Shown piece after piece: positions 12,808 to 28,854 of a stretch of 44,964 bases of DNA (its first letter is position 1; the number at the start of each line of letters is the position of its first letter). Both the position numbers and the translations under genes were made by a program. Source of the stretch: Candidatus Zixiibacteriota bacterium (GTDB lineage: Bacteria; RBG-13-66-14; B26-G2; WVWN01); NCBI GenBank assembly GCA_030613505.1, contig JAUWLW010000025.1, positions 1 through 44,964 of the forward strand, read 5' to 3'. Under the pieces are notes generated by a model. It did no database searches and was not told the origin of the DNA. It worked only from the letters and a program-made list of their open reading frames with translations.

Positions 12808-13251
12808 ATGGCCGAGATTAGGACCTACGAGGAAAGTGACGAGGCCGCCGTCGCGGCGCTGTGGCGCGAGGTCTTTCCGGACGCGCCGCCGTGGAACGAG
12901 CCCGAGGCCGACATTCGCCGCAAGCTCGCCGTCCAGCGCGACCTCTTCTTCGTCGCGGTCGACGGCGGCGACGTCGTCGGCACGGCCTTGGCGGGGTACG
13001 ACGGCCACCGCGGCTGGGTTTACTACGTCGCCGTCAAGCCGGACCGCCGGCGCCGGGGCATCGGCGCCGCGCTCATGAAGCGGGTCGAGGAGCGATTGGC
13101 GGCCATGGGCTGCCCCAAACTCAACCTTCAGGTACGCGCCCCCAACAGGGAAACCGTCGCCTTTTACGAGAACCTGGGCTACGCGGTGGAGGAGCGCGTG
13201 AGCATGGGGAAGCGGTTGGAAGGGGCCGCGCCGGACTCGAAAAAGTTGTAA
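12808..13251 (+). CDS. GNAT acetyltransferase (YpeA/RimI-like)
   Basis: A 147-residue single-domain GNAT N-acetyltransferase. 'FFVAVDGGDVVGTALAGYDGHRGWVYYVAVKPDRRRRGIGAALMKRVEERL' holds motif A with the acetyl-CoA pyrophosphate loop 'RRRRGIGAAL'. 'KLNLQVRAPNRETVAFYENLGYAVEERVSMGKRL' is motif B, with the 'N..V..FYE..GY' ending seen in YpeA. Acceptor unknown; protein N-termini or small amines are common for the family. RBS GAGGTG lies just upstream. Confidence 0.88.
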   Translation: MAEIRTYEESDEAAVAALWREVFPDAPPWNEPEADIRRKLAVQRDLFFVAVDGGDVVGTALAGYDGHRGWVYYVAVKPDRRRRGIGAALMKRVEERLAAMGCPKLNLQVRAPNRETVAFYENLGYAVEERVSMGKRLEGAAPDSKKL

Positions 13252-13270: not shown

Positions 13271-14167
13271 ATGCTCAAGGGATTACATTTCCTTCTGACG
13301 TACGCGTGCAACTTCGAGTGCGACCACTGCTTCCTGTACTGCGGCCCGCACGCGGAGGGGACGTTTACGCTCGAGCAACTTCGCGCGGCCCTCGACGAGG
13401 CCCAAAAACTCGGCAAGATCGGGTTTATCTATTACGAGGGCGGCGAGCCGTTCCTCTACTACCCGTTGATGGTAGAGGGGATCAAAATGGCGCGGGCGCG
13501 CGGCTTCAAGGCCGGGATCGTGACCAACTGCTACTGGGCGACGGCCGCGGAAGATGCCGCGCTTTGGCTGGGCCCTCTCCGGGAGGCCGGGACGGACGAC
13601 CTCTCCGTGAGCGACGACGCCTATCACCACGGCGACGAGGAAGAGACGCCGGCCAAGGTTGCCTCCCGCGCCGCGGCCGAGCTCGGCGTATCGTCGGGCG
13701 CGATCTGCATCGACGAGCCGACGGTCGAGTTCGGCGTCGAAAAGGGCGAGCCGGTGATAAAAGGAGGAGCGGTGATGCGGGGGCGCGCCGTCGAGAAGCT
13801 GGTGGAGGGGTTACCGACAAGGCCGTGGGAGGAGTTCGCCGAGTGCACCCGCGAGGAACTTAGAAATCCCGGCCGCGTCCACCTCGACGCCTTCGGCCAC
13901 GTGCACTTATGCCAGGGCCTGAGTATGGGCAACATGTGGGAGACGCCGCTGTCGCGATTGGTGGAAGGATACGACGCGGACGCCCATCCGATATGCGGGG
14001 CGCTACTGCGCGGCGGCCCGGCGGAGCTCGTCCGCGCGTACGACCTCGACCTCCGCGGCGAGTACGTCGACGAGTGCCACCTCTGCTTCCTCGCACGTAA
14101 GGCCCTAATCGACAGATTCCCCGAGTACCTCGCGCCGCGGCAGGTATACGGCCTGGATAACGAGTAA
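13271..14167 (+). CDS. Radical SAM protein with Cys-rich C-terminus (SPASM-like)
   Basis: A 298-residue radical SAM enzyme with cluster motif 'ACNFECDHCFLYCG' (Cys13, Cys17, Cys20, plus Cys24). 'IYYEGGEPFLYYPL' is the SAM-binding GGEP segment. 'DDLSVSDDAYHHGDEEE' is distinctive. The C-terminal third carries Cys in 'HVHLCQG', 'HPICGALL' and 'YVDECHLCFLARKAL', a spacing that suggests a SPASM or twitch auxiliary Fe-S site. Proteins of this plan modify peptides or mature other enzymes. No obvious peptide substrate gene is adjacent; the flanking genes are a GNAT and an SRPBCC protein. Start after AAAGGGA. Confidence 0.8.
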   Translation: MLKGLHFLLTYACNFECDHCFLYCGPHAEGTFTLEQLRAALDEAQKLGKIGFIYYEGGEPFLYYPLMVEGIKMARARGFKAGIVTNCYWATAAEDAALWLGPLREAGTDDLSVSDDAYHHGDEEETPAKVASRAAAELGVSSGAICIDEPTVEFGVEKGEPVIKGGAVMRGRAVEKLVEGLPTRPWEEFAECTREELRNPGRVHLDAFGHVHLCQGLSMGNMWETPLSRLVEGYDADAHPICGALLRGGPAELVRAYDLDLRGEYVDECHLCFLARKALIDRFPEYLAPRQVYGLDNE

Positions 14168-14201: not shown

Positions 14202-14660
14202 ATGGATAAGATAATCTACCAGGCCGTGAGGTTGCCGTGCGACGTCGCGCGGGCCTTCGAGATGTTCACGGTAAACGGTGAGCTGGAGAAGTGGCTCGCG
14301 GTCAAGGCCGACGTAGAGCCGCGCGTGGGCGGCAAGTACGAGCTCTTATGGAACCCGGCGGAGCCCGAATTCGACAGCACCATCGGCTGCCGGATAACGG
14401 CGCTCGAGCCGGGCAAGCTGCTGGCCTTCGAGTGGAAGGGGCCCAAGCAATATTCCGATTTCATGAACGAGTGCGAGCCGCTGACGCACGTGACGGTGGC
14501 GTTCGTCCCGGCCGAGGAGGAGGGGGAGCCGCGCACCGAGGTCCACCTCGTCCACACCGGGTGGCGCGGCACCGACGAGTGGGAGGAGGCGCGGCAGTGG
14601 TTCGTGCGTAATTGGGAGGGCGCCTTCGCCGAGCTGGAGAAGTTATTCTCGGGAGGGTAA
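14202..14660 (+). CDS. SRPBCC/AHSA1-type protein
   Basis: A 152-residue START-like fold protein of the AHSA1 (activator of Hsp90 ATPase homologue) type. 'YQAVRLPCDVARAFEMFTVNGELEKWLAVKADVEPRVGGKYELLW', 'GCRITALEPGKLLAFEWKGP' and 'VTVAFVPAEEEGEPRTEVHLVHTGWRGTDEWEEARQWFVRNWEGAFAELEKLF' reproduce the family order of helix, curved sheet and long C-terminal helix. These domains bind hydrophobic ligands or act as co-chaperones. Ligand unknown. Strong GGGGAG ribosome site. It is the last + strand gene before the convergent acyl-CoA operon. Confidence 0.85.
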   Translation: MDKIIYQAVRLPCDVARAFEMFTVNGELEKWLAVKADVEPRVGGKYELLWNPAEPEFDSTIGCRITALEPGKLLAFEWKGPKQYSDFMNECEPLTHVTVAFVPAEEEGEPRTEVHLVHTGWRGTDEWEEARQWFVRNWEGAFAELEKLFSGG

Positions 14661-16876: not shown

Positions 16877-17641
16877 CTACCACTTGGGCGCGCGCTTTTC
16901 CAAGAATGCTTTCATGCCTTCGTTGCCCTGGCCGCCCTCGAAGCACTTGCCGAAGAGCTCCGCCTCCAGCTTGCAGCCTTCTTCGACGGTGAGGGTTAAC
17001 CCTTCGTGCACGGCCTTCTTCACCATCGCGAGCGACGTCGGGCCCTTCTTGGCGACGGCCTCGGCGAGCTCCTTCACCTTCGGCATAAGCTCCTCCGGCT
17101 CGAAGACGCCGTTGACTAAGCCGAGCTCGAGCGCCCGGGCGCCGTCGATTTGCTCGCCCGTCGTCAAGAGGTACGTCGCTTTGCCCGGGCCGACGAGCTT
17201 CGGCAGCCGCTGCGTCCCGCCGAAGCCGGGCGTCACGCCCAGGCTGACCTCCGGTTGGCCCATCTTGGCCTTGGTGGAGGCGAACCGCATATCGCACGCC
17301 AGCGCGAGCTCCATGCCGCCGCCCCACGCGCAGCCGTTGACCGCGGCGACGGTTATGAAGTGGGCGCGCGCGCGCGCGCCGAAGACGCGCTGGCCGTTCT
17401 CGGCGAACGCCTTGGCCTGCGCGGCGTTCATATCCGCCATAGCGGCGATGTCCGCGCCGGCGACGAACGCCTTCCCCTCGCCGGTCACGACGACGACCAG
17501 GACCTCTTTGTCGCCGTCCAGCTCCGTGATAATTTTCTCAAGCTCGGCTAAAACTTCGCTGTTGAGGGCGTTCAGCGCGTCCGGCCGGTTAATAGTAACC
17601 GTCGCTACCGCGCCCTCTTTGGTGACTGTGACCAGTGCCAT
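16877..17641 (-). CDS. Enoyl-CoA hydratase (crotonase)
   Basis: A 254-residue crotonase. The oxyanion-hole segments are 'AFVAGADIAAM' and 'WGGGMELALACDMRFAS'. The two catalytic glutamates are Glu111 and Glu131 ('GQPEVSLGVTPGFGGTQRL'), spaced 20 apart as in rat crotonase. It should hydrate crotonyl-CoA to 3-hydroxybutyryl-CoA. One oddity: the segment before 'AAVNG', usually '..LEKPVI', reads 'ARARAHFIT' and is encoded by a 16-bp alternating GC tract (17364-17379). Length is unchanged, so it is not a frameshift. Start after GGGAG. Confidence 0.93.
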   Translation of the reverse strand: MALVTVTKEGAVATVTINRPDALNALNSEVLAELEKIITELDGDKEVLVVVVTGEGKAFVAGADIAAMADMNAAQAKAFAENGQRVFGARARAHFITVAAVNGCAWGGGMELALACDMRFASTKAKMGQPEVSLGVTPGFGGTQRLPKLVGPGKATYLLTTGEQIDGARALELGLVNGVFEPEELMPKVKELAEAVAKKGPTSLAMVKKAVHEGLTLTVEEGCKLEAELFGKCFEGGQGNEGMKAFLEKRAPKW

Positions 17642-17681: not shown

Positions 17682-18089
17682 TTAACCTTCCTGTATCAAT
17701 TCTATAAGCACGCCGAACGTACTCGACGGCTTCATGAAGATGACGCGCGAGCCGTGCGCGCCCTCGTACGGCGCGTCCGTAACGAATTCGTAGCCGTCGG
17801 CGCGGAGGGAGGCCGCCGCCTCGTCCACGTCGGCGACCTTGAAGCAGATATGGTGGATACCCGGGCCGCGTTTTTCGATAAATTTGGATATCGGGTCCTC
17901 GCCCAGGCCCTCGAGCAGCTCGATCTTTACGCCGCCGGCGTCCAAGAAGGCGAGTTTGAGGCCGCGTTCCGCCAGAACCTCCTCGCCGCCGAAAGTCAGG
18001 CCGAGCGCCTCCTCGTAAAACCGCCTCGCCTCGACTATGCTTTCAACGGCGACGCCGACGTGCTCGAGCTTCGCGCTTTTTACCGTCAC
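17682..18089 (-). CDS. mce: Methylmalonyl-CoA epimerase
   Basis: A 135-residue vicinal-oxygen-chelate protein, the usual length for methylmalonyl-CoA epimerase. Metal ligands are expected at His10 ('KLEHVGVAV'), in '[15 protein letters not shown]' and at the Glu of '[11 protein letters not shown]'. It interconverts (S)- and (R)-methylmalonyl-CoA between carboxylase and mutase. The start is GTG in a GTGA overlap with the mutase stop codon, which gives exact family length; the open frame upstream of it is only the mutase read in another frame. Operon position directly after the mutase confirms the assignment. Confidence 0.95.
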
Positions 18090-19699
18090 GGCCGTCCTTT
18101 CGTCTTGTCGTACTCGCCCCACACCTCGCGCAGCGCGTCGGATATTTCGCCCACCGTCGCCGCTACCTCGACGCAGGCGATAGTAGGTTCCATTAGCGGC
18201 GCGCCGCCCCCGGCCGCGGCCTCGCGCAGCGCCGCGAGCGCCTCCTCGAGCTTCGGGCCGTCCCTTTTCTCCCGGTAAGCGGCCAGCTCCCCAAGCCGGG
18301 CGCGCTCCAGCGCCGGCTCGAGGCGAAGCGTCTCGAACGGCGGCGCGCCCTCGGTTACGTATTCGTTCACGCCGACGACGACGCGCTTTTTCTCCTCGAC
18401 GTCCTTTTGGTATCGGTACGCGCTCGCGGCGATCTCGTCGGCGAAGTAGCCACTCTCCACCCCCGTCAACGCGCCGCCGAGCGCGTCGATTTCTTTGAGA
18501 TACTCTTCGACGCGCGCCTCGAGCTCGCGCGTCAGCGCCTCGACGAAGTACGAGCCGCCCAAGGGGTCGGCGGTATCGGCGACGCCGCTCTCGTGGGCGA
18601 TTATCTGTTGCGTGCGGAGGGCGATGAGCGCCGATTCCTCGGAGGGGAGCGCCAGTGCTTCGTCGCGGGAGTTGGTGTGCAGCGACTGCGTTCCGCCCAA
18701 TACCGCCGCCAGCGCCTGCAGCGCGACGCGTACGACGTTGTTCGCCGGCTCGCGGGCGGTGAGGGTGCAGCCCGCCGTCTGCGTGTGGAAGCGCAGCATC
18801 ATCGAGCGCTGGTTTTTGGCGCCGAAGCGGTCCGCCATCAGCCGGCACCAGACCCGCCGCGCGGCGCGGAACTTCGCCACCTCCTCCAGCAGGTCGTTGT
18901 GCGCGCCGAAGAAGAAGCTCAGCCGCGGCGCGAAGTCGTCTACTTCCAAGCCCGCCGCCAAAGCCGCTTCGACGTACGCGACGGCGTCCGCGAAGGTGAA
19001 GGCGACCTCCTGGGCCGCGGTGGCGCCGGCCTCGCGTATATGATACCCCGAGATGGAGATGCTGTTCCACGACGGCATGTTCGCCGCGCAGTAGCGGATG
19101 AGGTCGGTCGCAAGGCGAAGCGACGGCGCCGGCGGGTAGATGTAGTTGCCGCGCGCGAAGAATTCCTTGAGGATGTCGTTCTGGACGGTCCCGCGGAGCT
19201 CCGCCGGGTCCGCGCCCTGCCGCCGCGCCAGCGCGACGTACATGGCCAGCAGCGTGGGCGCGGTGGCGTTTATGGTCATCGACGTCGAGACGTCGGCCAG
19301 CGGTATGCCGTCGAAGAGGGCGGCCAGGTCGTCGAGCGTGGATATCGCGACGCCGGTCCGGCCCACCTCGCCGCGGGCCAGCGTCGCGTCCGAGTCGTAG
19401 CCGCACTGCGTCGGGAGGTCGAAGGCGACGGAGAGGCCGGTCTGGCCCTGCGACAGGAGGTAGCGGTAGCGTTTGTTGGTGTCCGCGGCGGTGGCGTAGC
19501 CGGCATACTGGCGCATGGTCCACAGCCGGCCGCGGTACATGTCGGCGTAAACGCCGCGCGTGAAGGGCGGTGCGCCGGGGTCGCCCAGCTCGAGGCCGTA
19601 GTCGACCGGCGCGTCTTCCGGCTTGTATACTGCCTTGACCTCTATGCCGGAAGTCGTCGTCACGTGGCGTTCGGCGCTCTCTCTATTTTTCCGCGTCAT
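18086..19699 (-). CDS. mcmA: Methylmalonyl-CoA mutase, large (catalytic) subunit
   Basis: A 537-residue TIM-barrel subunit of a split B12-dependent mutase; it lacks the C-terminal B12 domain, which is supplied by the separate small subunit in the operon. '[28 protein letters not shown]', '[17 protein letters not shown]', '[13 protein letters not shown]' and '[23 protein letters not shown]' are family hallmarks. The residues that fix substrate choice in the Propionibacterium enzyme, Tyr89 and Arg207, correspond here to Tyr65 and Arg183, 118 residues apart in both. This is the methylmalonyl-CoA signature. It should convert (R)-methylmalonyl-CoA to succinyl-CoA. Its ATG overlaps the carrier-protein stop (ATGA). 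Confidence 0.93.
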
Positions 19700-20211
19700 T
19701 CGATGACGACCAGGACGTCGCCCAGGGAGACGCCTCGCCCTTTTTCGATTTTAACTTCTTTCACGACGCCGCCGCGCGGTGCGCGCATCAGGTTCTCCAT
19801 CTTCATGGCCTCGACGACGCAGAGGCCCTGACCTTCGGCAACCTCGTCGCCGGGCGCGACCAGGACGTCCAGCACCATCGCCGGCATGGGCGCTTTCACC
19901 TCGGCCGCGGCCTGTTCGCCCTCGCCGGCCCCCCCCTTAAGTTCGCGGATGCGCCGCCGCCGCTCGTCCTCCACCGACACCGCGAGGGTGTGGCCGGCTA
20001 CGAAGACGACGTAACCGCCGCGCTCGTCGCGCCGCACCCACAGCTCGGCGGAGTTTCCGTCGAGTATCAGCGAGTAGATAGCGTCGCGCGCGACTTCGTA
20101 GTAGTCGATGTCGCACGGCTCGCCGTCGACGGTTACGGCCGGCGACGGCCCTTCGCCCTCCACCGTGAGTTCGTACGTGCGGCTGCCTATGGTGGTCCAG
20201 TAGCGCATCAT
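19696..20211 (-). CDS. Biotin carboxyl carrier subunit of acyl-CoA carboxylase
   Basis: A 171-residue protein. The C-terminal biotinyl domain (about 100-171) carries '[10 protein letters not shown]' with biotin attachment at Lys137, 34 residues from the end, preceded by the usual '[24 protein letters not shown]'. The first 95 residues form a beta-rich segment ('[56 protein letters not shown]') like the region joining carboxylase and carrier in single-chain propionyl- and acetyl-CoA carboxylases. Start chosen at the ATG overlapping the biotin-carboxylase stop (ATGA); a second ATG follows immediately. It is the mobile arm between the carboxylase and the carboxyltransferase of this operon. Confidence 0.93.
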
Positions 20212-21707
20212 TCGCCTACGCTCTCGCGGCGGGCGGCCAATCGCCAGGCGTCGGTCGCCGGGCCGGCGCCGTCCGTGCCGGCGGGCGCCTCGGCCCCGCG
20301 GAGGTGGCTGAGAATGGTGCACAGCACCGCCGCCGCCTTCTCCTGCCTTTCGGCGTGGGAGGCTTCGGGCCGGAAATATTTTTCCACGAAAGAGGTGTCG
20401 AACTCGCCTTTTCGGAAAACCTCCGACGCCATAACCCAGCGGTGGAAGGGAATGGTGGTCGCGACGCCGTCGAGGACGAACTCGTTGAGCGCGCGGCTCA
20501 TCCGCTCGACGGCCAGCGGCCGGTCCTCGGCCCATACCACCAGCTTGGCGATGAGCGGGTCGTAGTATATGGGCACCTCGTACCCTTGGGCGATGCCGCC
20601 GTCGAAGCGGACGCCCGGGCCGGAGGGCAGCCGCAGCCGCGAGATCGTCCCCGTCGCCGGGTAGAAGTTGTTGTCCGGGTCTTCGGCCGAGATGCGGCAC
20701 TCGATCGCCGCGCCCCGGGGTTTTACGTCGTCCTGCGCGAAGGCCAACGGCTCGCCGGCGGCTATGCGGAGCTGTTCCTTGACGAGGTCGACGCCCGTTA
20801 CGAGTTCCGTCACCGGGTGCTCAACCTGAAGGCGGGCGTTCACCTCCAGGAAGTAGAAGTTGCGGTCGGCGTCGAGCAGGAACTCTATGGTGCCGGCGTT
20901 GGTGTAGTTTGCCGCGCGGGCCGCTTTTAGGGCGGCCTGGGCCATCCGCGCCCGCAACTCGTCGTCGAGGGCGGGCGAGGGCGACTCCTCGACCAGCTTC
21001 TGGTGGCGGCGCTGGATGGAGCACTCCCGCTCGTGGAGGTGGACGACGTTGCCGTGGGCGTCAGCGAGGATTTGGAACTCGACGTGGCGCGGCCCCGCGA
21101 TGCATTTTTCGACGTATACGGCGTCGTCGCCGAAGGCCGAGCGCGCTTCGCTCCGGGCGTGTTTGAGGAGTTCGGCGAAGTCGTCGGCGCGGGCGCACAC
21201 GCGCATGCCCTTGCCGCCGCCGCCGGCCGCGGCCTTTATCATCACCGGCCAGCCGATCTCGGCCGCCGCCCGGGCGATGGCGTCGTCTTCCCGCAGCTCG
21301 GGCGGCGAGCCCGGTATCACCGGAATGCCGGCCGCGGCCATCGTCGCCCGGGCGCCCTGCTTGTCGCCCGCGGCCCGCAGCGTCGCCGGCGCCGGCCCGA
21401 CGAAGACCAGGGCCGCGTCTTCGCACGCCGCGGCGAAGTCGGCGTTCTCCGCCAGGAAGCCGTACCCCGGGTGCACCGCCTCCGCGCCGGCTCGCCGCGC
21501 GACGTCGACTATTTTATCTATCCGGAGGTAAGACTCGCTCGCCGGCGCGGCGCCGACGTTGTAGACTTCGTTGGCGTAGCGGACGTGGGGCGCCGGCCGG
21601 TCGGCGTCGGAGTAGACGCCCACGCTCCGGATGCCGAGCTCCCGGCACGCCCGCATCACGCGGACGGCGATCTCGCCCCGGTTGGCTATCAATACCTTTT
21701 TAAACAT
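20208..21707 (-). CDS. Biotin carboxylase subunit of acyl-CoA (propionyl-CoA) carboxylase
   Basis: A 499-residue ATP-grasp biotin carboxylase. It opens 'KKVLIANRGEIAVRVMRACRELGIRSVGVYSDADR', contains the ATP loop 'KAAAGGGGKGMRVC', 'HVEFQILADAHGNVVHLHERECSIQRRHQKLVEESPSP' and 'FLEVNARLQVEHPVTELVTG'. It runs about 50 residues past the usual 450, ending in a helical tail likely to contact the carrier or carboxyltransferase. It carboxylates biotin with bicarbonate and ATP. The neighbouring carboxyltransferase, epimerase and mutase point to propionyl-CoA as final acceptor. It overlaps the preceding methyltransferase by 8 bases. Confidence 0.95.
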   Translation of the reverse strand: MFKKVLIANRGEIAVRVMRACRELGIRSVGVYSDADRPAPHVRYANEVYNVGAAPASESYLRIDKIVDVARRAGAEAVHPGYGFLAENADFAAACEDAALVFVGPAPATLRAAGDKQGARATMAAAGIPVIPGSPPELREDDAIARAAAEIGWPVMIKAAAGGGGKGMRVCARADDFAELLKHARSEARSAFGDDAVYVEKCIAGPRHVEFQILADAHGNVVHLHERECSIQRRHQKLVEESPSPALDDELRARMAQAALKAARAANYTNAGTIEFLLDADRNFYFLEVNARLQVEHPVTELVTGVDLVKEQLRIAAGEPLAFAQDDVKPRGAAIECRISAEDPDNNFYPATGTISRLRLPSGPGVRFDGGIAQGYEVPIYYDPLIAKLVVWAEDRPLAVERMSRALNEFVLDGVATTIPFHRWVMASEVFRKGEFDTSFVEKYFRPEASHAERQEKAAAVLCTILSHLRGAEAPAGTDGAGPATDAWRLAARRESVGE

Positions 21708-22269
21708 GCGAGGTCTTGGGTTTCGTGAGGCGCAGGTAGAACCAGTCGCCGTGGTCGTCCTCCACCTCTACCTCCAGGGCCGCGGCCGCGGCGAATTCCC
21801 GGACCGTCTCGAGGTTTTGCTCGCGGCCTTCGCCCCGTACGCGGTATCCCGTCCGCGCGACCTCCCCGCCGGGCAGCGTCACCGTGACGGCGACGCCGAA
21901 GACGTCGTCGCCCGGGGGGACCGGCGCGCCCCAGATGTGGAGGCGGCCGCCGGCCTTTAGGACGCGCGCCGCCTCGGCCACGAGCGCGCGCTTGGCCTCG
22001 GCGCCCTTCACGTACATCAGGCCGAAGAAGACGGTGACGTGCTCGAAGGTGTTTTCGACGAACTGCGTGCGCGTCGCGTCGCCCACGAGGAAGATGGTGC
22101 GCGGCGGGCACTTGGGCCGGGCTGCGTTGATTTCCGATATCTGCGAATCCACGCCGATGACGCGGCCCGGGTACGCCCGGGCGATTATGCCCTCGCCGCC
22201 CGCGCACAGGTCGAGGATGACGGGCATGGGCTCGAGCGGCCCGAGGCTGATTTCGACGCCGTCGCTCAT
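21700..22269 (-). CDS. SAM methyltransferase embedded in the carboxylase operon
   Basis: A 189-residue class I methyltransferase. It opens with motif I unusually close to the N-terminus: 'PVILDLCAGGEGIIARAYPGRVIGVDSQISEINAARPKCP'. It continues 'FLVGDATRTQFVENTFEHVTVFFGLMYVKG' and 'RVLKAGGRLHIWGAPVPPGDDVFGVAVTVTLPGGEVARTGYRV'. The small size and lack of an extra domain give no clue to the acceptor. It is locked between carboxyltransferase and biotin carboxylase by start-stop overlaps on both sides, so its product is made in step with the carboxylase. It might modify a carboxylase subunit or a CoA-pathway intermediate; this is inference only. Confidence 0.78.
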   Translation of the reverse strand: MSDGVEISLGPLEPMPVILDLCAGGEGIIARAYPGRVIGVDSQISEINAARPKCPPRTIFLVGDATRTQFVENTFEHVTVFFGLMYVKGAEAKRALVAEAARVLKAGGRLHIWGAPVPPGDDVFGVAVTVTLPGGEVARTGYRVRGEGREQNLETVREFAAAAALEVEVEDDHGDWFYLRLTKPKTSHV

Positions 22270-22340
22270 TCGTCGGTCACCTTGTCCTCAGCGGCCGTGG
22301 CGAACAAAGCGACCGCGCCGAATATAAGAAAGTCGTTCAT
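22266..22340 (-). CDS. Micro-ORF: 24-residue single-helix membrane peptide
   Basis: The peptide MNDFLIFGAVALFATAAEDK..TDE consists of a short hydrophobic helix (about 4-17) and an acidic tail. It fills the gap between the carboxyltransferase stop and the methyltransferase start, and its TGA overlaps the methyltransferase ATG (ATGA), like most gene junctions in this operon. An in-frame ATG four codons upstream (22352) would add MVES. Sodium-pump decarboxylases carry a small membrane gamma or delta subunit at a similar place, but this peptide is much shorter and has no linker, so homology is uncertain. Confidence 0.45.
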   Translation of the reverse strand: MNDFLIFGAVALFATAAEDKVTDE

Positions 22341-22354
22341 ACTCTCTACCATAT

Positions 22355-23905
22355 TTACAACGGTATATTCCCGTGTTTCTTGGGCGGGTTCTTGTCGCGT
22401 TTGTTGCGGAGCATCTCGAGCGCCTGAATGATGCGAGGCCGCGTCTCGCGCGGCATTATGACCTCGTCGACGTAACCCAGCTCGGCGGCGATGTAGGGGT
22501 TGGCGAATTTCTCGCGGAACTCGGCGACGAGTTTTTCACGCAGCGCCTCCGCGTCCTTGGCCTCGGCCAGCTCGCGCCGGTGCAAAATGTTCACCGCGCC
22601 CTCGGGGCCCATCACCGCGATTTGCGCCGTGGGCCAGGCGTAGACCGTGTCGCCGCGCATGTGCTTGGTGGAGGTGACGGCGTAGGCGCCGCCGTACGAC
22701 TTGCGGACGATGACGTGGACCTTGGGGGCCGTGGCCTCGCCGTACGCGTACAACAGCATCGCGCCGTGTTTGATGACGCCCCCGTACTCCTGCGCCGTCC
22801 CGGGGAGGAAGCCCGGCACGTCGGAGAAGGTGAGGATGGGGATGTTGAAGGCGTCGGAGAAGCGGATGAAGCGCGCCGACTTGCAGGCCGAGTTGATGTC
22901 CAGGCAGCCGGCCAGCACCAGCGGTTGGTGGGCGTTGATGCCGACGGTCCGCCCCGCCATGCGCGCGAAGCCGCATATCATGTTGGGCGCGAAATCTTTG
23001 TGAATCTCGAAGAAGTCGCCGTTGTCGACGACGTGTCGGATGACGTCCTTCATGTCGTAGGGTTTGTTGGGCGAGTCGGGGAGGAGCGCGTCGAGCTCGG
23101 CGTCGGCTCGAGCCGGGTCGTCGCCGGTCTCGACGTACGGCGGCTCGTCGAGGTTGTTCTGCGGCAGGAAGGATAGGAGGCGGCGTATCTCTTGCAGGCA
23201 CTCCACCTCGTTGGCGGCGACGACATGGCAGCAGCCGGACTTGGTGGCGTGGACCCGGGCGCCGCCCAGCTCCTCGAACGTTACCTCCTCGTTCATCACG
23301 GTCTTGATGACGTCCGGGCCGGTGAGGAACATATAGGACGTGCCCTCCACCATGAAGGTGAAGTCCATCACCGCGGGCGAGTAAACGGCGCCGCCGGCGC
23401 AGGGGCCCATTATGGCGGCTATCTGCGGCACGACGCCGGAGGCGAGGGTATTGCGCAAAAAGAAGTCGGAGTAGCCGGCCAGCGAGTCGACGCCGTCCTG
23501 GATGCGCGCGCCGCCGGAGTCGTTGAGGCCCACGATGGGCGCGCCCACGCGCAGGGCGTGGTCGCACACTTTGCAGATCTTCTCGCCGTGGGCTTTGGTG
23601 AGGGTGCCGCCGAAGGAGGTGAAGTCCTGGGCGAAGACGAAGGGGAGGCGGCCGTCGACGCGGCCGTAGCCGGTGACGACGGCGTCGCCCGGGACGCGGC
23701 GCTTCTCCATGTCGAAGTCGTGGCAGCGGTGGACGACGGTGGCATCGAGCTCGCGGAAGGTGCCCTCGTCGAGGAGGATGTCGAGGCGCTCGCGGGCGGT
23801 GAGCTTGCCGGCGTCGTGTTGTTTGGCGACGCGCTCCGGGCCGCCGCCCTCCAGCGCCCGGGCGCGCACCTTCGCCAACCTCTCGTAGAGTTCTTCGTTG
23901 GCCAT
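22355..23905 (-). CDS. pccB: Propionyl-CoA-type carboxyltransferase (beta) subunit
   Basis: A 516-residue carboxyltransferase with paired crotonase-fold halves, the usual length for PccB/MmdA. The N-half has '[22 protein letters not shown]', '[24 protein letters not shown]' and '[20 protein letters not shown]'; '[16 protein letters not shown]' is the acyl-CoA oxyanion site. The C-half has '[80 protein letters not shown]', the biotin site. It ends '[15 protein letters not shown]', typical of propionyl-/methylmalonyl-CoA carboxyltransferases. It transfers CO2 from biotin to propionyl-CoA. Decarboxylase (MmdA) use cannot be ruled out from this subunit, but the ATP-grasp partner favours carboxylation. 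Confidence 0.94.
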
Positions 23906-23920
23906 GGAAGTTACCGCGGG

Positions 23921-24325
23921 TTAATTATCCGAGGCCGCGGCCTCGCGGATGTACTTAACGATCTCATCGGTGGTGGTGCCGGGCGTGAACAGACGGCCTA
24001 TGCCGACCTTTTGCAGTTCGGCGATGTCGTCCTCGGGCAGGATGCCGCCGCCCGTGATGACGACGTGCTCGGCGCCCTTCTCGCGCAAAAGCTCCCGGAC
24101 GCGAGGGAACATCGTCATGTGCGCGCCGGAGAGTATGGACAGGCCGACGACGTCGACGTCCTCCTGCAGCGCCGCCTCCACGATGGCCTCCGGCGTCTGG
24201 TGCAGGCCGGTGTAGATGACCTCCATGCCGGCGTCGCGCAGCGCCCGCGCCACCACCTTGGCGCCGCGGTCGTGGCCGTCGAGGCCCGGCTTCGCCACCA
24301 GTACGCGTATTCTTTTTCGTCCCAT
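23921..24325 (-). CDS. B12-binding small subunit of acyl-CoA mutase
   Basis: A 134-residue stand-alone cobalamin-binding domain. '[33 protein letters not shown]' contains the D-x-H-x-x-G motif with His18 as lower axial ligand. '[21 protein letters not shown]' and '[30 protein letters not shown]' complete the Rossmann-like pocket. It is the only such domain in the window, although two mutase large subunits are encoded. It directly follows the isobutyryl-type large subunit, so the simplest reading is that it serves both. RBS GAGGTAG. Confidence 0.95.
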
Positions 24326-24363
24326 AAGCTACCTCGCTGCGTACCAAGCCGGTTCGAGCCGGC

Positions 24364-26031
24364 CTAGAACATCGGCGTTTCCTTGTACTCGCCGAACTCC
24401 TCGCGCAAGATGTCCAGCGTCTCGCCCAGCGTGGCGTACGCCCGCGCGCAGGCCAGGAAGTGGGGCATGAGGTTGGTCCCGTCGCGCGCGGCCTGCCGCA
24501 GGCCGTCGAGCGCCTTCTTCCACTCCGCCTCCGAGCGTTCCGCGCGCACCTTCGCCAGCCGCTTCTTCTGGTGTTCCTCCACCGCCGGGTCGCCCTTCAA
24601 AAGGTCCATCTCTATTTTTTCGTCCGCCAGCTCGAATTCGTTCACGCCGACGACGATCCGCGTCCCCGCCTCGATCTTCTTCTGGTAGGCGTACGCCGCG
24701 TCGGCGATTTCTTTCTGGAAGAAACCCTTCTCGATGGCTTTAAGGACGCCGCCTAACGCTTCGATTTTCTCGAAGTACTCCTCGGCCTCCTGCTCGAGTT
24801 TGTTCGTCATATACTCGACGTAGTACGAGCCGGCGAGGGGGTCGATGGTATTGGCGACGCCCGATTCGTAGGCGATTATCTGCTGCGTGCGGAGGGCGAT
24901 GAGGACCGCCTTTTCGGAGGGCAGCGCCATCGTCTCGTCCATGGAGTTGGTATGGAGCGACTGCGTGCCGCCCAGCACGCCGGCCAGCGCCTCGAGCGCG
25001 GTGCGGACGATGTTGTTCTCCGGCTGTTGCGCCGTAAGGCTGCATCCCGCCGTCTGGGTGTGGAAGCGCATGAGCCAGCTGCGCGGGTTCTTGGCCTTAT
25101 ACTTATCCTTCATCCGCTTGGCCCAGATGCGCCGGGCGGCGCGGTACTTCGCTATCTCCTCGAAAAAGTCGAGGTGGGCGTTGAAGAAATGGGAGAGGCG
25201 CGGCGCGAACGTGTCCACGTCCAGGCCGGCGGCGACGCCGGCCTCGACGTACGCGAAGCCGTCGGCCAGCGTGAAGGCGAGTTCCTGGGCCGCGGTGGAG
25301 CCGGCCTCGCGGATGTGATACCCCGAAATGGAGATAGTGTTCCACTTCGGGACCTCGTCGGCGCAGTAGGCCATGATGTCGGTGATGATGCGCATCGACG
25401 GCTCGGGCGGGTAGATCCACGTCTTCTGGGCGATGTATTCTTTCAGGATGTCGTTCTGGATGGTGCCGCGCAGCAGCTTGGAGTCGACGCCCTGCTTCTC
25501 GCCCACGGCGACGTAGTACGCCAGGAGAAGCGCCGCGGGGGCATTGATGGTCATCGACGTTGACACCTCGGCCAGCGGGATGCCGTCGAAGAGGACCTCC
25601 ATGTCGGCCAGCGACGAGATAGCGACGCCGCACTTGCCCGCCTCGCCGTGCGCGTACGGGTGGTCCGAGTCGCGGCCCATGATGGTGGGCAGGTCGAAGG
25701 CTACCGAGAGGCCGGTCTGGCCGTGGCTCAGCAGGTATTTGTAGCGTTGATTCGTGTCCTCCGCGGAGCCGAAGCCGGAGAATTGACGCATGGTCCACAG
25801 CCGGCCGCGGTACATGTTGGTTTGGACGCCGCGGGTATAGGGGTACTCCCCCGGGACGCCGAGGTCCTCGCCGTAGTCGAGGCCGTCGACGTCGGCCGGG
25901 GTGTAGAGCGGCGCCACCGGCAGGCCGCTCACGGTCTCGAAGAGGGCGTTCCGTTCTTCGCAATCGGCGGCTTCTTTATCCCATTCCGCCTTAGCCCGGG
26001 CGACTTTTTCCAATTCCTTTTTATCGAACAT
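24364..26031 (-). CDS. B12-dependent mutase large subunit, isobutyryl-CoA-mutase type
   Basis: A 555-residue TIM-barrel subunit, paralogous to the methylmalonyl-CoA mutase subunit of the same operon and likewise without a B12 domain. It has '[28 protein letters not shown]', '[25 protein letters not shown]', '[25 protein letters not shown]' and '[14 protein letters not shown]'. Where methylmalonyl-CoA mutase has Tyr and Arg (Tyr89/Arg207 in Propionibacterium), this protein has Phe84 and Gln202, again 118 apart. Phe/Gln is the signature described for isobutyryl-CoA mutase (Phe80/Gln198 in Streptomyces IcmA). It should interconvert isobutyryl-CoA and n-butyryl-CoA. 2-Hydroxyisobutyryl-CoA mutase (Ile/Gln) is less likely. 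Automatic annotation would probably call it methylmalonyl-CoA mutase. Confidence 0.88.
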
Positions 26032-26065: not shown

Positions 26066-27217
26066 TTACCGCAGCAGATGGCCCGCGATGACGAGGCGTT
26101 GCACCTCGGAGGTGCCCTCGTAAATTTCGGTGATGCGCTGGTCGCGGTAGAGGTGTTCGACGGCCGAGAAGTCGCCGACGTAGCCGTAGCCGGCGTGGAT
26201 TTGCATGCAGCGGTCGACGCAGAAATTCGCCGCCTCGGAGCCGTAGAGCTTGGCTTGCGCGGCCTCCAGGCCCATAGGCTCGCCCGCGGCCTCCTTGCGC
26301 GCGGCCTTGTACGTCAGAAGCCGCGCCGCCTCGAGCCGGACCGACATATCGGCGATCATCCACTGGATGGCCTGCAGCTTGGCGATGGGCGCGCCGAATT
26401 GCTCGCGCTCTTTGGCGTAGGCCGAGGCGAGGTCGAAGGCGCGCTGGCAGATGCCGACGGATTGGGCGGCGACGCCGATGCGGGCGCCGTCGAGCGTGTT
26501 CATCGTGACGCGGAAACCCTTACCGTGCTCACCCAGGAGGTTCTCTTTAGGTATCTTTACGTCCTTGAAGTACAGGCGGGCCGTAGTCGAGGCGCGTATC
26601 CCCATCTTGTATTTTAAAATTTCGGTCGTGTACCCCGGGTCGTCGGGGTTGTCGAAGATGAGGGCCGAGACCTTGAACTTGTCCGGGTTCTCGGCGGTGT
26701 TGGCTTTGCAAATGACGACGACGACGTCGGCCACGTTGCCGGAGGTGATGAAGATCTTCTCGCCGTTGAGGACGTAGTGGTCGCCGTCGAGGACCGCGGT
26801 GGCTTGTTGCGCCGCGGCGTCGGAGCCCGCGCTCGGCTCGGTCAGCGCGAAGGCGCCGTGGGTCTCCCCGGCGTTCATCGGCGGCAGGTACTTCTTCTTC
26901 TGCTCTTCGGTGCCGAACTTCTGGATGGGGTACGAGGCCAGCACCTGCACCGCCATAACGATGCCAAAAGCCGCGTCGGCGTACGATATCTCCTCGATGA
27001 GCGTCGCGTATAGCAACTTGTTCTGGCCGCCGCCGCCGTATGCCGGGTCCGCCGGGTAGCCGAGGTAGCCGGCTTTGCCCATAGCCTTGAAAACGTCTTC
27101 CGGGAACTCGGGCGGCCTGCGGTCGAGCTGCTCGCTCACCGGGTCGATGTGCTTTTTGGCGAAGGCACGAGCCTTTTCGCGTACTTTTTCCTGCGCGGGG
27201 TCCCAGTTCCAGGCCAT
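26066..27217 (-). CDS. Acyl-CoA dehydrogenase (short-chain type)
   Basis: A 383-residue FAD acyl-CoA dehydrogenase. 'GAFALTEPSAGSDAAAQQATAVLDGDHYVLNGEKIFITSGNVADVVVVICKA' binds FAD and substrate. 'GICQRAFDLASAYAKEREQFGAPIAKLQAIQWMIADM' and 'HAGYGYVGDFSAVEHLYRDQRITEIYEGTSEVQRLVIAGHLLR' follow. The catalytic base is Glu367 in 'IYEGTSE', the position used by short- and medium-chain enzymes. In this operon the likely substrate is butyryl-CoA, formed by the adjacent mutase, giving crotonyl-CoA. An isobutyryl- or 2-methyl-branched-chain substrate is an alternative. No electron-transfer flavoprotein genes are present in the window. RBS AGGAGA. Confidence 0.93.
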   Translation of the reverse strand: MAWNWDPAQEKVREKARAFAKKHIDPVSEQLDRRPPEFPEDVFKAMGKAGYLGYPADPAYGGGGQNKLLYATLIEEISYADAAFGIVMAVQVLASYPIQKFGTEEQKKKYLPPMNAGETHGAFALTEPSAGSDAAAQQATAVLDGDHYVLNGEKIFITSGNVADVVVVICKANTAENPDKFKVSALIFDNPDDPGYTTEILKYKMGIRASTTARLYFKDVKIPKENLLGEHGKGFRVTMNTLDGARIGVAAQSVGICQRAFDLASAYAKEREQFGAPIAKLQAIQWMIADMSVRLEAARLLTYKAARKEAAGEPMGLEAAQAKLYGSEAANFCVDRCMQIHAGYGYVGDFSAVEHLYRDQRITEIYEGTSEVQRLVIAGHLLR

Positions 27218-27235: not shown

Positions 27236-28204
27236 TTATATTTCGCGAGAGACTTCTTTAAAGAGCCGGGCCGAAGCTTCGTAGGGCGTAAGTAGCCCTT
27301 GCTGTACCTCGGCCGTTAATAATTCCAATAAATTTTCGTAGGCCGGCGCGGCGGCGCAAACGCACTTGAATTCGTACTCGAGCAGCTCCTCGAGCTGGCG
27401 TCGCACCCGCGCGCGGCGGCGCGTCGTCAACCCGTTCGACTTCTCGAGGTGCGAGCGGTGGACCGCCACCGCCTCCAGTATTTCGTCCACGCCGCGCCCC
27501 TCGGTCGCGACCGACATGACCACCGGTGGCCGCCACCCGTCTTCGGGCTTGAGCTCGAGCGTGACGCGGAGCTCGCGCGCCATCTGCTCGGCGCCCTCGC
27601 GGTCGGCCTTGTTGACCACCAGCACGTCGGCGATCTCCATCAGGCCGGCCTTCATCGCCTGGACCGCGTCCCCGGACTCCGGGACGACGACTACCACCGT
27701 CGTATCGGCGGAGTTGGCGACGTCGAGCTCGCTCTGGCCCACGCCCACCGTCTCGATGAGCACGAGGTCGAGGCCGAAGGCGTCCATCGTCAGCGCGACT
27801 TCGCCCGTAGCCTTGGCCAGGCCGCCCGGGCCGCCGCGCGTCGCCATGCTGCGGATGAAGATGCGCTCGTTGCCGGCCAGCTCATTCATCCGGATGCGGT
27901 CGCCCAACAGCGCGCCGCCGGTGAAGGGGCTGGTCGGGTCCACCGCGACCACGCCCACGTCCCGCCCCGCGGCGGCGTAGCGCTCCGCCAGGTGCGACAC
28001 CAACGTCGACTTGCCGGCCCCCGGCGGCCCGGTGATGCCTACCAGGTACGCTTTGCCCGCGCGGCCGTATATCTCGCGCAGGAAGTCGCGGTAGCCGTCG
28101 GCCTCGTCCTCCACCGCGGATATGGCCCGCGCCAGCGCGAGGCGGTCGCCGGCCAGGAAGCGCTCCAGGAAGTCGGTCGCCGTTACTACGCCGGCGCCCT
28201 TCAA
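27236..28204 (-). CDS. meaB: MeaB/ArgK-type G-protein chaperone of the B12 mutase
   Basis: A 322-residue SIMIBI-class GTPase. P-loop 'GITGPPGAGKSTLVSHLA', then 'VAVDPTSPFTGGALLGDRIRMNEL', 'IFIRSMATRGGPGGLA', 'ETVGVGQSELDVANSADTTVVVVVPESGDAVQAMKAGLMEIADVLVVNKADREG'. MeaB gates loading of adenosylcobalamin onto methylmalonyl-CoA mutase and protects it from inactivation. With two mutases here it may serve both. Its ATG overlaps the adenosyltransferase stop (ATGA), coupling cofactor synthesis to cofactor delivery. Confidence 0.95.
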   Translation of the reverse strand: MKGAGVVTATDFLERFLAGDRLALARAISAVEDEADGYRDFLREIYGRAGKAYLVGITGPPGAGKSTLVSHLAERYAAAGRDVGVVAVDPTSPFTGGALLGDRIRMNELAGNERIFIRSMATRGGPGGLAKATGEVALTMDAFGLDLVLIETVGVGQSELDVANSADTTVVVVVPESGDAVQAMKAGLMEIADVLVVNKADREGAEQMARELRVTLELKPEDGWRPPVVMSVATEGRGVDEILEAVAVHRSHLEKSNGLTTRRRARVRRQLEELLEYEFKCVCAAAPAYENLLELLTAEVQQGLLTPYEASARLFKEVSREI

Positions 28205-28728
28205 AACTCGATCCCTTTCCGCGCCGGGACGCCGATGCGGTAATGGTGCTTTATCTCCCGCACCTCGCTCACCAGGTCCGCGGCGTCGGCGAATTCGGCG
28301 GGCGCGCCGCGGCCCGTCAGGACGAGTTCCATCTCGGGAGGTTTGTGCGATATGAGGTCCAGGATTTCTCTTACGGCGACGAGGCCGTAGTCGGCGGCGA
28401 CGTTCACTTCGTCCAAGATGACGAGGTCGTACGCGTTCTCGGCGACGACCTGCCGCGCCCGCTCCAGCGCCTCGCGCGCCAAAGCGACGTCCTCCGCCGC
28501 CGGCTCGTCGTGGTCGACGAAGGTCTCGCGGCCGTACTGTTCGATGTCGAAACCCTCGAGTTTTCGCGCGGCCTCCAGCTCGCCGTAATTTATCCGACCC
28601 TTCATGAACTGGATAACGAGTACCCGCGCGCCGTGGCCCCAGGCGCGCAGCGCGAGGCCGAGGGCGGCGGTGGTCTTGCCCTTGCCGTCGCCGGCGTAAA
28701 CTTGAACCGTACCTTGTGCGCCTAGCAT
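28201..28728 (-). CDS. cobO: Cob(I)alamin adenosyltransferase (CobA/CobO/BtuR type)
   Basis: A 175-residue ATP:corrinoid adenosyltransferase. 'VQVYAGDGKGKTTAALGLALRAWGHGARVLVIQFMKG' has the P-loop, 'YDLVILDEVNVAADYGLV' the Walker B-like motif, and 'LVLTGRGAPAEFADAADLVSEVREIKHHY' the typical 'LTGR.A...L.E.ADLVTE' ending. It makes adenosylcobalamin for the mutases. The open frame extends 42 codons upstream, but that part overlaps the promoter; ATG 28728 gives normal family length. No convincing Shine-Dalgarno site precedes it. It is the first gene of the acyl-CoA operon. Confidence 0.93.
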   Translation of the reverse strand: MLGAQGTVQVYAGDGKGKTTAALGLALRAWGHGARVLVIQFMKGRINYGELEAARKLEGFDIEQYGRETFVDHDEPAAEDVALAREALERARQVVAENAYDLVILDEVNVAADYGLVAVREILDLISHKPPEMELVLTGRGAPAEFADAADLVSEVREIKHHYRIGVPARKGIEF

Positions 28729-28825
28729 CGTATTGCGGGTAAGCGGCGAGTAAACCCTCTCGCCTAAGCGCCCACCCGTCGGGTTGGCGCCCTTTGAGCT
28801 AAACTGGTAAGAGAAGAAGGACTTT

Positions 28826-28854
28826 TTTATAACATCCGCCCCGTGACGTGTCAA
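28826..28854 (-). promoter_or_regulatory. Promoter of the acyl-CoA/B12 operon
   Basis: Reading the - strand, TTGACA (28849-28854) is followed by a 17-bp spacer and TATAAA (28826-28831). The leader of about 90 nt to the first start codon holds a GC-rich hairpin (28768-28790, arms GCGCC/GGCGC and ACCC/GGGT). It is too short for a cobalamin riboswitch, and no B12-box-like sequence was seen. The 322-nt divergent gap (28729-29050) contains this promoter and that of ftsH, with no gene. Confidence 0.82.

Follow-up and report, generated by a model that had tools for sequence, protein, structure and literature searches.

A single cobalamin-binding subunit beside two predicted acyl-CoA mutases in a Candidatus Zixiibacteriota gene cluster, a common arrangement in genomes that carry both

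Results and Discussion

Two paralogous large (substrate) subunits of adenosylcobalamin (AdoCbl)-dependent acyl-CoA mutases and one small B12-binding subunit are encoded on the minus strand of contig JAUWLW010000025.1 of the Candidatus Zixiibacteriota assembly GCA_030613505.1, of which positions 1 to 44,964 (the window, meaning the whole stretch of DNA analyzed) were examined. One large subunit has tyrosine and arginine at the two positions that determine substrate specificity (Y65/R183, hereafter Y/R), and the other has phenylalanine and glutamine (F84/Q202, hereafter F/Q). We consider it probable from the sequences that these are two split mutases, a methylmalonyl-CoA mutase (MCM) formed with the Y/R protein and an isobutyryl-CoA mutase (ICM) formed with the F/Q protein, with a common cobalamin subunit. 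Furthermore, one cobalamin subunit for an F/Q and Y/R pair is the commonest state among the genomes that we surveyed, and is therefore ordinary and not exceptional; this widespread one-for-two arrangement is the most interesting part of the finding.

Residue pairs of the two large subunits

The two large subunits are 59% identical to each other, and the members of each residue pair are separated by 118 residues. Both pairs align to Y89/R207 of the Propionibacterium mutase (1req) with phmmer, with no gaps in between. The alignment is as unambiguous as a first-pass annotation of this DNA had held, and the coordinates and residue numbers that it gave for the two large subunits and the small subunit are all correct. 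The columns were assigned from alignments with 1req, human 2xij, HcmA (4r3u) and 5req, the Y89F mutant chain of 1req, in which phenylalanine falls in the same column as F84. In IcmF (4xc6), aligned via a bacterial IcmF, the same columns hold F618/Q762 of the tagged chain, which corresponds to Phe598/Gln742 assuming a 20-residue tag. At about 50-60% identity the two specificity columns are unambiguous in these sequence comparisons, and the DNA pattern designed for each residue pair matches the window at a single place and is absent from all 100 shuffles. The same two sites have been used, citing Jost et al. 2015, to name a Tyr92/Arg210 protein methylmalonyl-CoA mutase (PMC7238569). With residues as in 1req and as in IcmF, respectively, the two proteins fit the earlier prediction of one MCM-type and one ICM-type subunit.

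The Y/R protein retains the catalytic histidine (H220) in addition to both determinant residues. The F/Q protein, at 555 amino acids, consists of the mutase domain only, with no B12 domain of its own and with the small subunit encoded by a separate gene. Its best solved relative is HcmA 4r3u (575.9 bits), followed by MCMs; at the positions equivalent to Ile90 and Asp117, which we take to be the determinants of 2-hydroxyisobutyryl-CoA mutase (HCM), it has F84 and A111. Its best named model is TIGR00641, "methylmalonyl-CoA mutase N-terminal domain", and it falls under the cut-offs of PRK09426 and of the fused IcmF model (360 bits, where 1500 are required). The gene is thus likely prone to misannotation as methylmalonyl-CoA mutase, as had been anticipated. 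An example of such misnaming is found in Methylibium petroleiphilum PM1, where a protein (L170:3905-5593) that bears no more specific name than "methylmalonyl-CoA mutase family protein" is nearly identical in our tree to the solved HcmA. The small subunit scores far above the TIGR00640 cut-off (172.8 versus 57.45 bits) and contains the base-off DxHxxG, SxL and GG motifs. All three subunits are under purifying selection, with dN/dS of 0.09-0.14 against two relatives of the same genus (G001 and G003).

One small subunit in the genome and in its relatives

With 100 contigs and a completeness of 93%, the assembly encodes two large-subunit (PF01642) proteins, one MeaB (PF03308) and a single small subunit above the TIGR00640 cut-off; the only other match to this model is a methionine synthase below the cut-off. 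The count of one small subunit in the first-pass annotation of the window thus extends to the assembly. Twelve other proteins in the assembly contain a B12-binding domain, and the mutase small-subunit model matches none of them; the six that we examined are all radical-SAM proteins. The suggested search for a second small subunit was extended to relatives of the same phylum, and none was found there either: six of them (G001-G005 and G007) have a single copy each of the F/Q, Y/R and small subunits, including two at 100% completeness (G005 and G007) and two assembled as single contigs. The order of the cluster is retained in G001 and G003, in a relative of the same order (G004) and in one of the same class (G005). 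Elsewhere the parts are dispersed and still served by a single small subunit; in the single-contig genome G002 the Y/R gene is located 1.16 Mb from the F/Q gene, and in G007 the parts lie on three contigs. An in-frame TGA noted in G004 is the stop codon of the open reading frame, at the end of the match.

One small subunit for two large subunits in other genomes

In order to assess how common this arrangement is, we searched 242 genomes, sampled mostly at one or two for each family, with the DNA patterns for both residue pairs. F/Q was detected in 59 genomes, Y/R in 126 and both in 55. Because the patterns miss F/Q proteins with RMF in place of RQF, there are at least this many pairs. Three of the 55 genomes were left out, two because their MCM carries a fused B12 domain (G020 and G098) and one because only a fragment of the small subunit is present (G011). 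Exactly one stand-alone small subunit was found in 41 of the remaining 52 genomes with F/Q and unfused Y/R, representing 35 of 44 families. Most of the named genomes are in this state, among them members of Cloacimonadota, Bathyarchaeota, Actinomycetota, Neomarinimicrobiota, Acidobacteriota, Chloroflexota (Anaerolinea), Gemmatimonadota (Gemmatimonadales) and Ignavibacteria. Therefore, the first-pass statement that one B12 subunit for two mutases would be unusual does not hold, although we found no paper describing such sharing in the open-licence literature that was searched. At the other extreme, one genome of 2.5 Mb in many contigs (G045) has 19 large-subunit matches and several stand-alone small subunits above the cut-off, an expansion that could be explained by additional substrates, alkylsuccinates for example, or by contamination.

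Phylogeny and gene neighbors

A tree was built of 94 large subunits, comprising 48 Y/R, 40 F/Q, four I/Q (HCM) and two IcmF sequences. The Y/R proteins, including MutB (1req), MMUT (2xij) and the window Y/R protein, lie on one side of a branch with support of 97, and the window F/Q protein lies on the F/Q side with IcmF, which itself carries F/Q. The phylogenetic check that had been proposed thus places the F/Q protein apart from the Y/R enzymes. The residue-pair labels need no more than the minimum of three changes on the tree, also when both columns are masked. The HCMs and one I/Q relative form a clade of their own with support of 100. An Acidobacteria genome (G084) has, in addition to F/Q and Y/R subunits, a third large subunit with Ile/Gln (L218:63-1742), which groups with HCM. 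The nearest named F/Q relatives of the window protein belong to other phyla, and a recent duplication of the two large subunits within the phylum of the window was rejected (p-AU 0.026).

Gene neighbors provide evidence that is independent of the sequence of the subunits. Considering loci with full flanks, a methylmalonyl-CoA epimerase gene is found within 3 kb of 26 of 43 Y/R loci and of none of 41 F/Q loci (Fisher 1.4e-10), and the difference persists when the phylum of the window is removed (20 of 37 versus 0 of 35; 6e-8). One Anaerolinea locus (L148) was left out because of a short flank; here the only F/Q gene that we saw beside an epimerase shares its cluster with a Y/R gene. Conversely, an adenosyltransferase is adjacent to 10 of 41 F/Q loci versus 1 of 43 Y/R loci, and an acyl-CoA dehydrogenase to 14 of 41 versus 2 of 43. 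These neighbors support methylmalonyl-CoA as the substrate of Y/R and, for F/Q, a substrate of another kind, namely of the butyryl type.

Alternative explanations

Four observations weigh against an MCM and an ICM that share one subunit. In the phylum of the window the small-subunit gene adjoins the F/Q gene (38 bp downstream of it in the window) and not the Y/R gene. When the two determinant columns are masked the split in the tree is kept, but support for the Y/R side drops from 97 to 30, and so the split is consistent with two families but not proven. The predicted assignment to ICM draws on IcmF and the residue pair and not on Streptomyces IcmA, the mutase matches that we examined on Streptomyces plasmids being Y/R. 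Finally, dedicated subunits also occur, as 11 of the 52 census genomes have two or more small subunits, and a Syntrophaceae genome (L158) is a clear counter-case in which each large subunit is adjoined by a small subunit of its own.

Such genomes, together with the incomplete state of the assembly, would be in keeping with a further small subunit, dedicated to one of the mutases and encoded in the 7% of the genome that the assembly lacks, with nothing shared. Given that the complete and single-contig relatives with both types of large subunit have exactly one small subunit, this is very improbable. We see similarly little chance that only the F/Q subunit uses the small subunit and that the Y/R protein is an inactive or moonlighting paralog. 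The place of the small-subunit gene directly after the F/Q gene could be read in this way, and one chain of the MutA/MutB heterodimer is inactive (PMC10481361); nevertheless, the Y/R protein has kept H220, both determinants, an epimerase neighbor and a dN/dS of about 0.12-0.14, and in other loci the small-subunit gene directly follows a Y/R gene.

With regard to the substrate of the F/Q enzyme, the generic models call both proteins methylmalonyl-CoA mutase, and F/Q could in principle be a variant of that enzyme. We find this barely credible, since the partner of the carboxylate is gone with the loss of Arg207, no F/Q locus with full flanks has an epimerase nearby, the one F/Q gene that does has a Y/R gene in its cluster, and the retention of F/Q alongside Y/R in 55 of 59 genomes suggests separate jobs. 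It is also unlikely, if less remote, that the F/Q enzyme is not an ICM proper and acts on another acyl-CoA lacking a second carboxylate, such as the 2-hydroxyisobutyryl/3-hydroxybutyryl-CoA or isovaleryl/pivalyl-CoA pairs. Glutamine in place of arginine excludes merely a carboxylate partner, HcmA is the best-scoring solved relative, and the cluster is predicted to make 3-hydroxybutyryl-CoA. However, the F/Q protein differs from HCM at both determinant positions, HCM and its I/Q relative form a separate clade, and an aromatic residue with glutamine is the IcmF pair.

Comparison with known systems and a proposed mechanism

Syntrophothermus lipocalidus isomerizes isobutyrate, and its ICM cluster encodes N- and C-domain proteins together with an adenosyltransferase and MeaB (PMC5017805). 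By analogy, its gene kit is the closest described parallel to the window cluster. Like this and the Streptomyces split IcmA/IcmB, the window has separate large and small subunits, the expected F/Q pair, and an adenosyltransferase and MeaB; it differs in that no other small subunit is encoded in the genome and that the cluster also includes a Y/R large subunit. The split MCM on a plasmid of Ilyobacter polytropus likewise has a Y/R large subunit within a methylmalonyl-CoA cluster with epimerase, but there the small subunit and MeaB directly follow the Y/R gene, whereas in the window both belong to the F/Q part. HcmA/HcmB (4r3u) shares the split architecture and the glutamine in place of arginine, but has Ile/Gln with Asp117 where the window protein has Phe/Gln with Ala111, and belongs to a different clade. 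IcmF (4xc6) has the same residues at the same columns; its B12 domain, G-protein and mutase domain form one chain of about 1100 residues and not the products of separate genes.

For two split mutases with a common cobalamin subunit, we propose the following. The adenosyltransferase of the cluster would make AdoCbl, and the one MeaB of the genome would gate its delivery to the small subunit, a mechanism that has been described for MMAA/MeaB and IcmF (PMC10356863, PMC10481361). Together, the two proteins would load and repair the cofactor. The loaded small subunit could then dock on either substrate barrel. The Y/R mutase, with the epimerase and the carboxylase genes (20208-23905 and 19696-20211), would connect propionyl-CoA and succinyl-CoA, and the F/Q mutase would interconvert isobutyryl-CoA and butyryl-CoA. 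From butyryl-CoA, a link to acetyl-CoA may be provided by the acyl-CoA dehydrogenase, crotonase, hydroxybutyryl-CoA dehydrogenase and thiolase. Carbon from valine, isobutyrate, propionate and butyrate could all pass through the one cluster. In this scheme the residue pairs, the protein families, the single small subunit and MeaB of the assembly, the gene order with its overlaps and the conservation are observed, and we infer the substrates, the direction of flux and the binding of the small subunit to each of the large ones.

A simple residue-pair rule thus separates putative isobutyryl-CoA mutases from methylmalonyl-CoA mutases that TIGR00641 and PF01642 name alike, and it predicts isomerization of isobutyrate and butyrate in many uncultured lineages. 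It also raises the testable question of whether two different carbon-skeleton mutases can be supplied by a single B12 module and a single G-protein chaperone and, in that case, whether they compete for the module. More tentatively, and at slightly less than even chances in our view, an exchangeable cobalamin subunit and one MeaB for at least two substrate subunits may be a general and probably old design of acyl-CoA mutases that many bacterial and archaeal phyla have retained, the fused and dedicated forms being specializations that arose later.

Organization of the gene cluster

The genes of the cluster are listed in Table 1. Transcription proceeds along the minus strand, and the F/Q gene therefore precedes the Y/R gene; the first-pass annotation had called them second and first by window coordinate. 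Immediately upstream of the F/Q gene is the acyl-CoA dehydrogenase gene. Start and stop codons overlap between the biotin carboxylase and carrier genes, between the carrier and Y/R genes (by 4 bp) and between the Y/R and epimerase genes, and therefore at least the part from biotin carboxylase to epimerase is very likely a single operon.

Table 1. Predicted genes of the mutase cluster, in order of transcription (window coordinates)
Coordinates	Strand	Predicted product	Basis
28201-28854	-	ATP:corrinoid adenosyltransferase (CobA/CobO)	TIGR00708 above cut-off; PF02572
27236-28204	-	MeaB G-protein chaperone	TIGR00750 above cut-off; PF03308, single match in assembly
26066-27217	-	Short-chain acyl-CoA dehydrogenase	PF00441/PF02770/PF02771; best NCBIfam AcrC, below cut-off
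24364-26031	-	F/Q large mutase subunit, IcmA-type isobutyryl-CoA mutase (predicted)	F84/Q202; TIGR00641 792 bits
23921-24325	-	Small B12-binding subunit	DGHDRG...SILSG...GGG; TIGR00640 172.8 bits; relatives 2yxb, 4r3u_C
22355-23905	-	Propionyl/methylmalonyl-CoA carboxyltransferase subunit	TIGR01117 798.5 bits, under decarboxylase cut-off 998.8
21700-22269	-	Small SAM methyltransferase	PF08241
20208-21707	-	Biotin carboxylase subunit	TIGR00514 and PRK08591 above cut-off
19696-20211	-	Biotin carrier protein	AMKM motif; PF00364
18086-19699	-	Y/R large mutase subunit, methylmalonyl-CoA mutase type	Y65/R183; TIGR00641 745.7 bits
17682-18086	-	Methylmalonyl-CoA epimerase	TIGR03081 130.1 bits, cut-off 114.95
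16877-17641	-	Enoyl-CoA hydratase (crotonase)	PF00378
15661-16839	-	Acetyl-CoA acetyltransferase (thiolase)	PF00108/PF02803
14782-15633	-	3-hydroxybutyryl-CoA dehydrogenase	PRK05808 above cut-off

The relative G001, of the same genus, also has the small SAM methyltransferase gene that separates the carboxyltransferase gene from that of biotin carboxylase. Beyond the cluster, a short radical-SAM protein of 298 amino acids (13271-14167) has as neighbors a possible acetyltransferase reading frame, recognized by eye (12808-13251), and an AHSA1 protein (14202-14660). In addition, the protein encoded at 11725-12789 matches baeRF family 10 and eRF1 domain 3, indicating a bacterial member of the archaeo-eukaryotic release factor superfamily.

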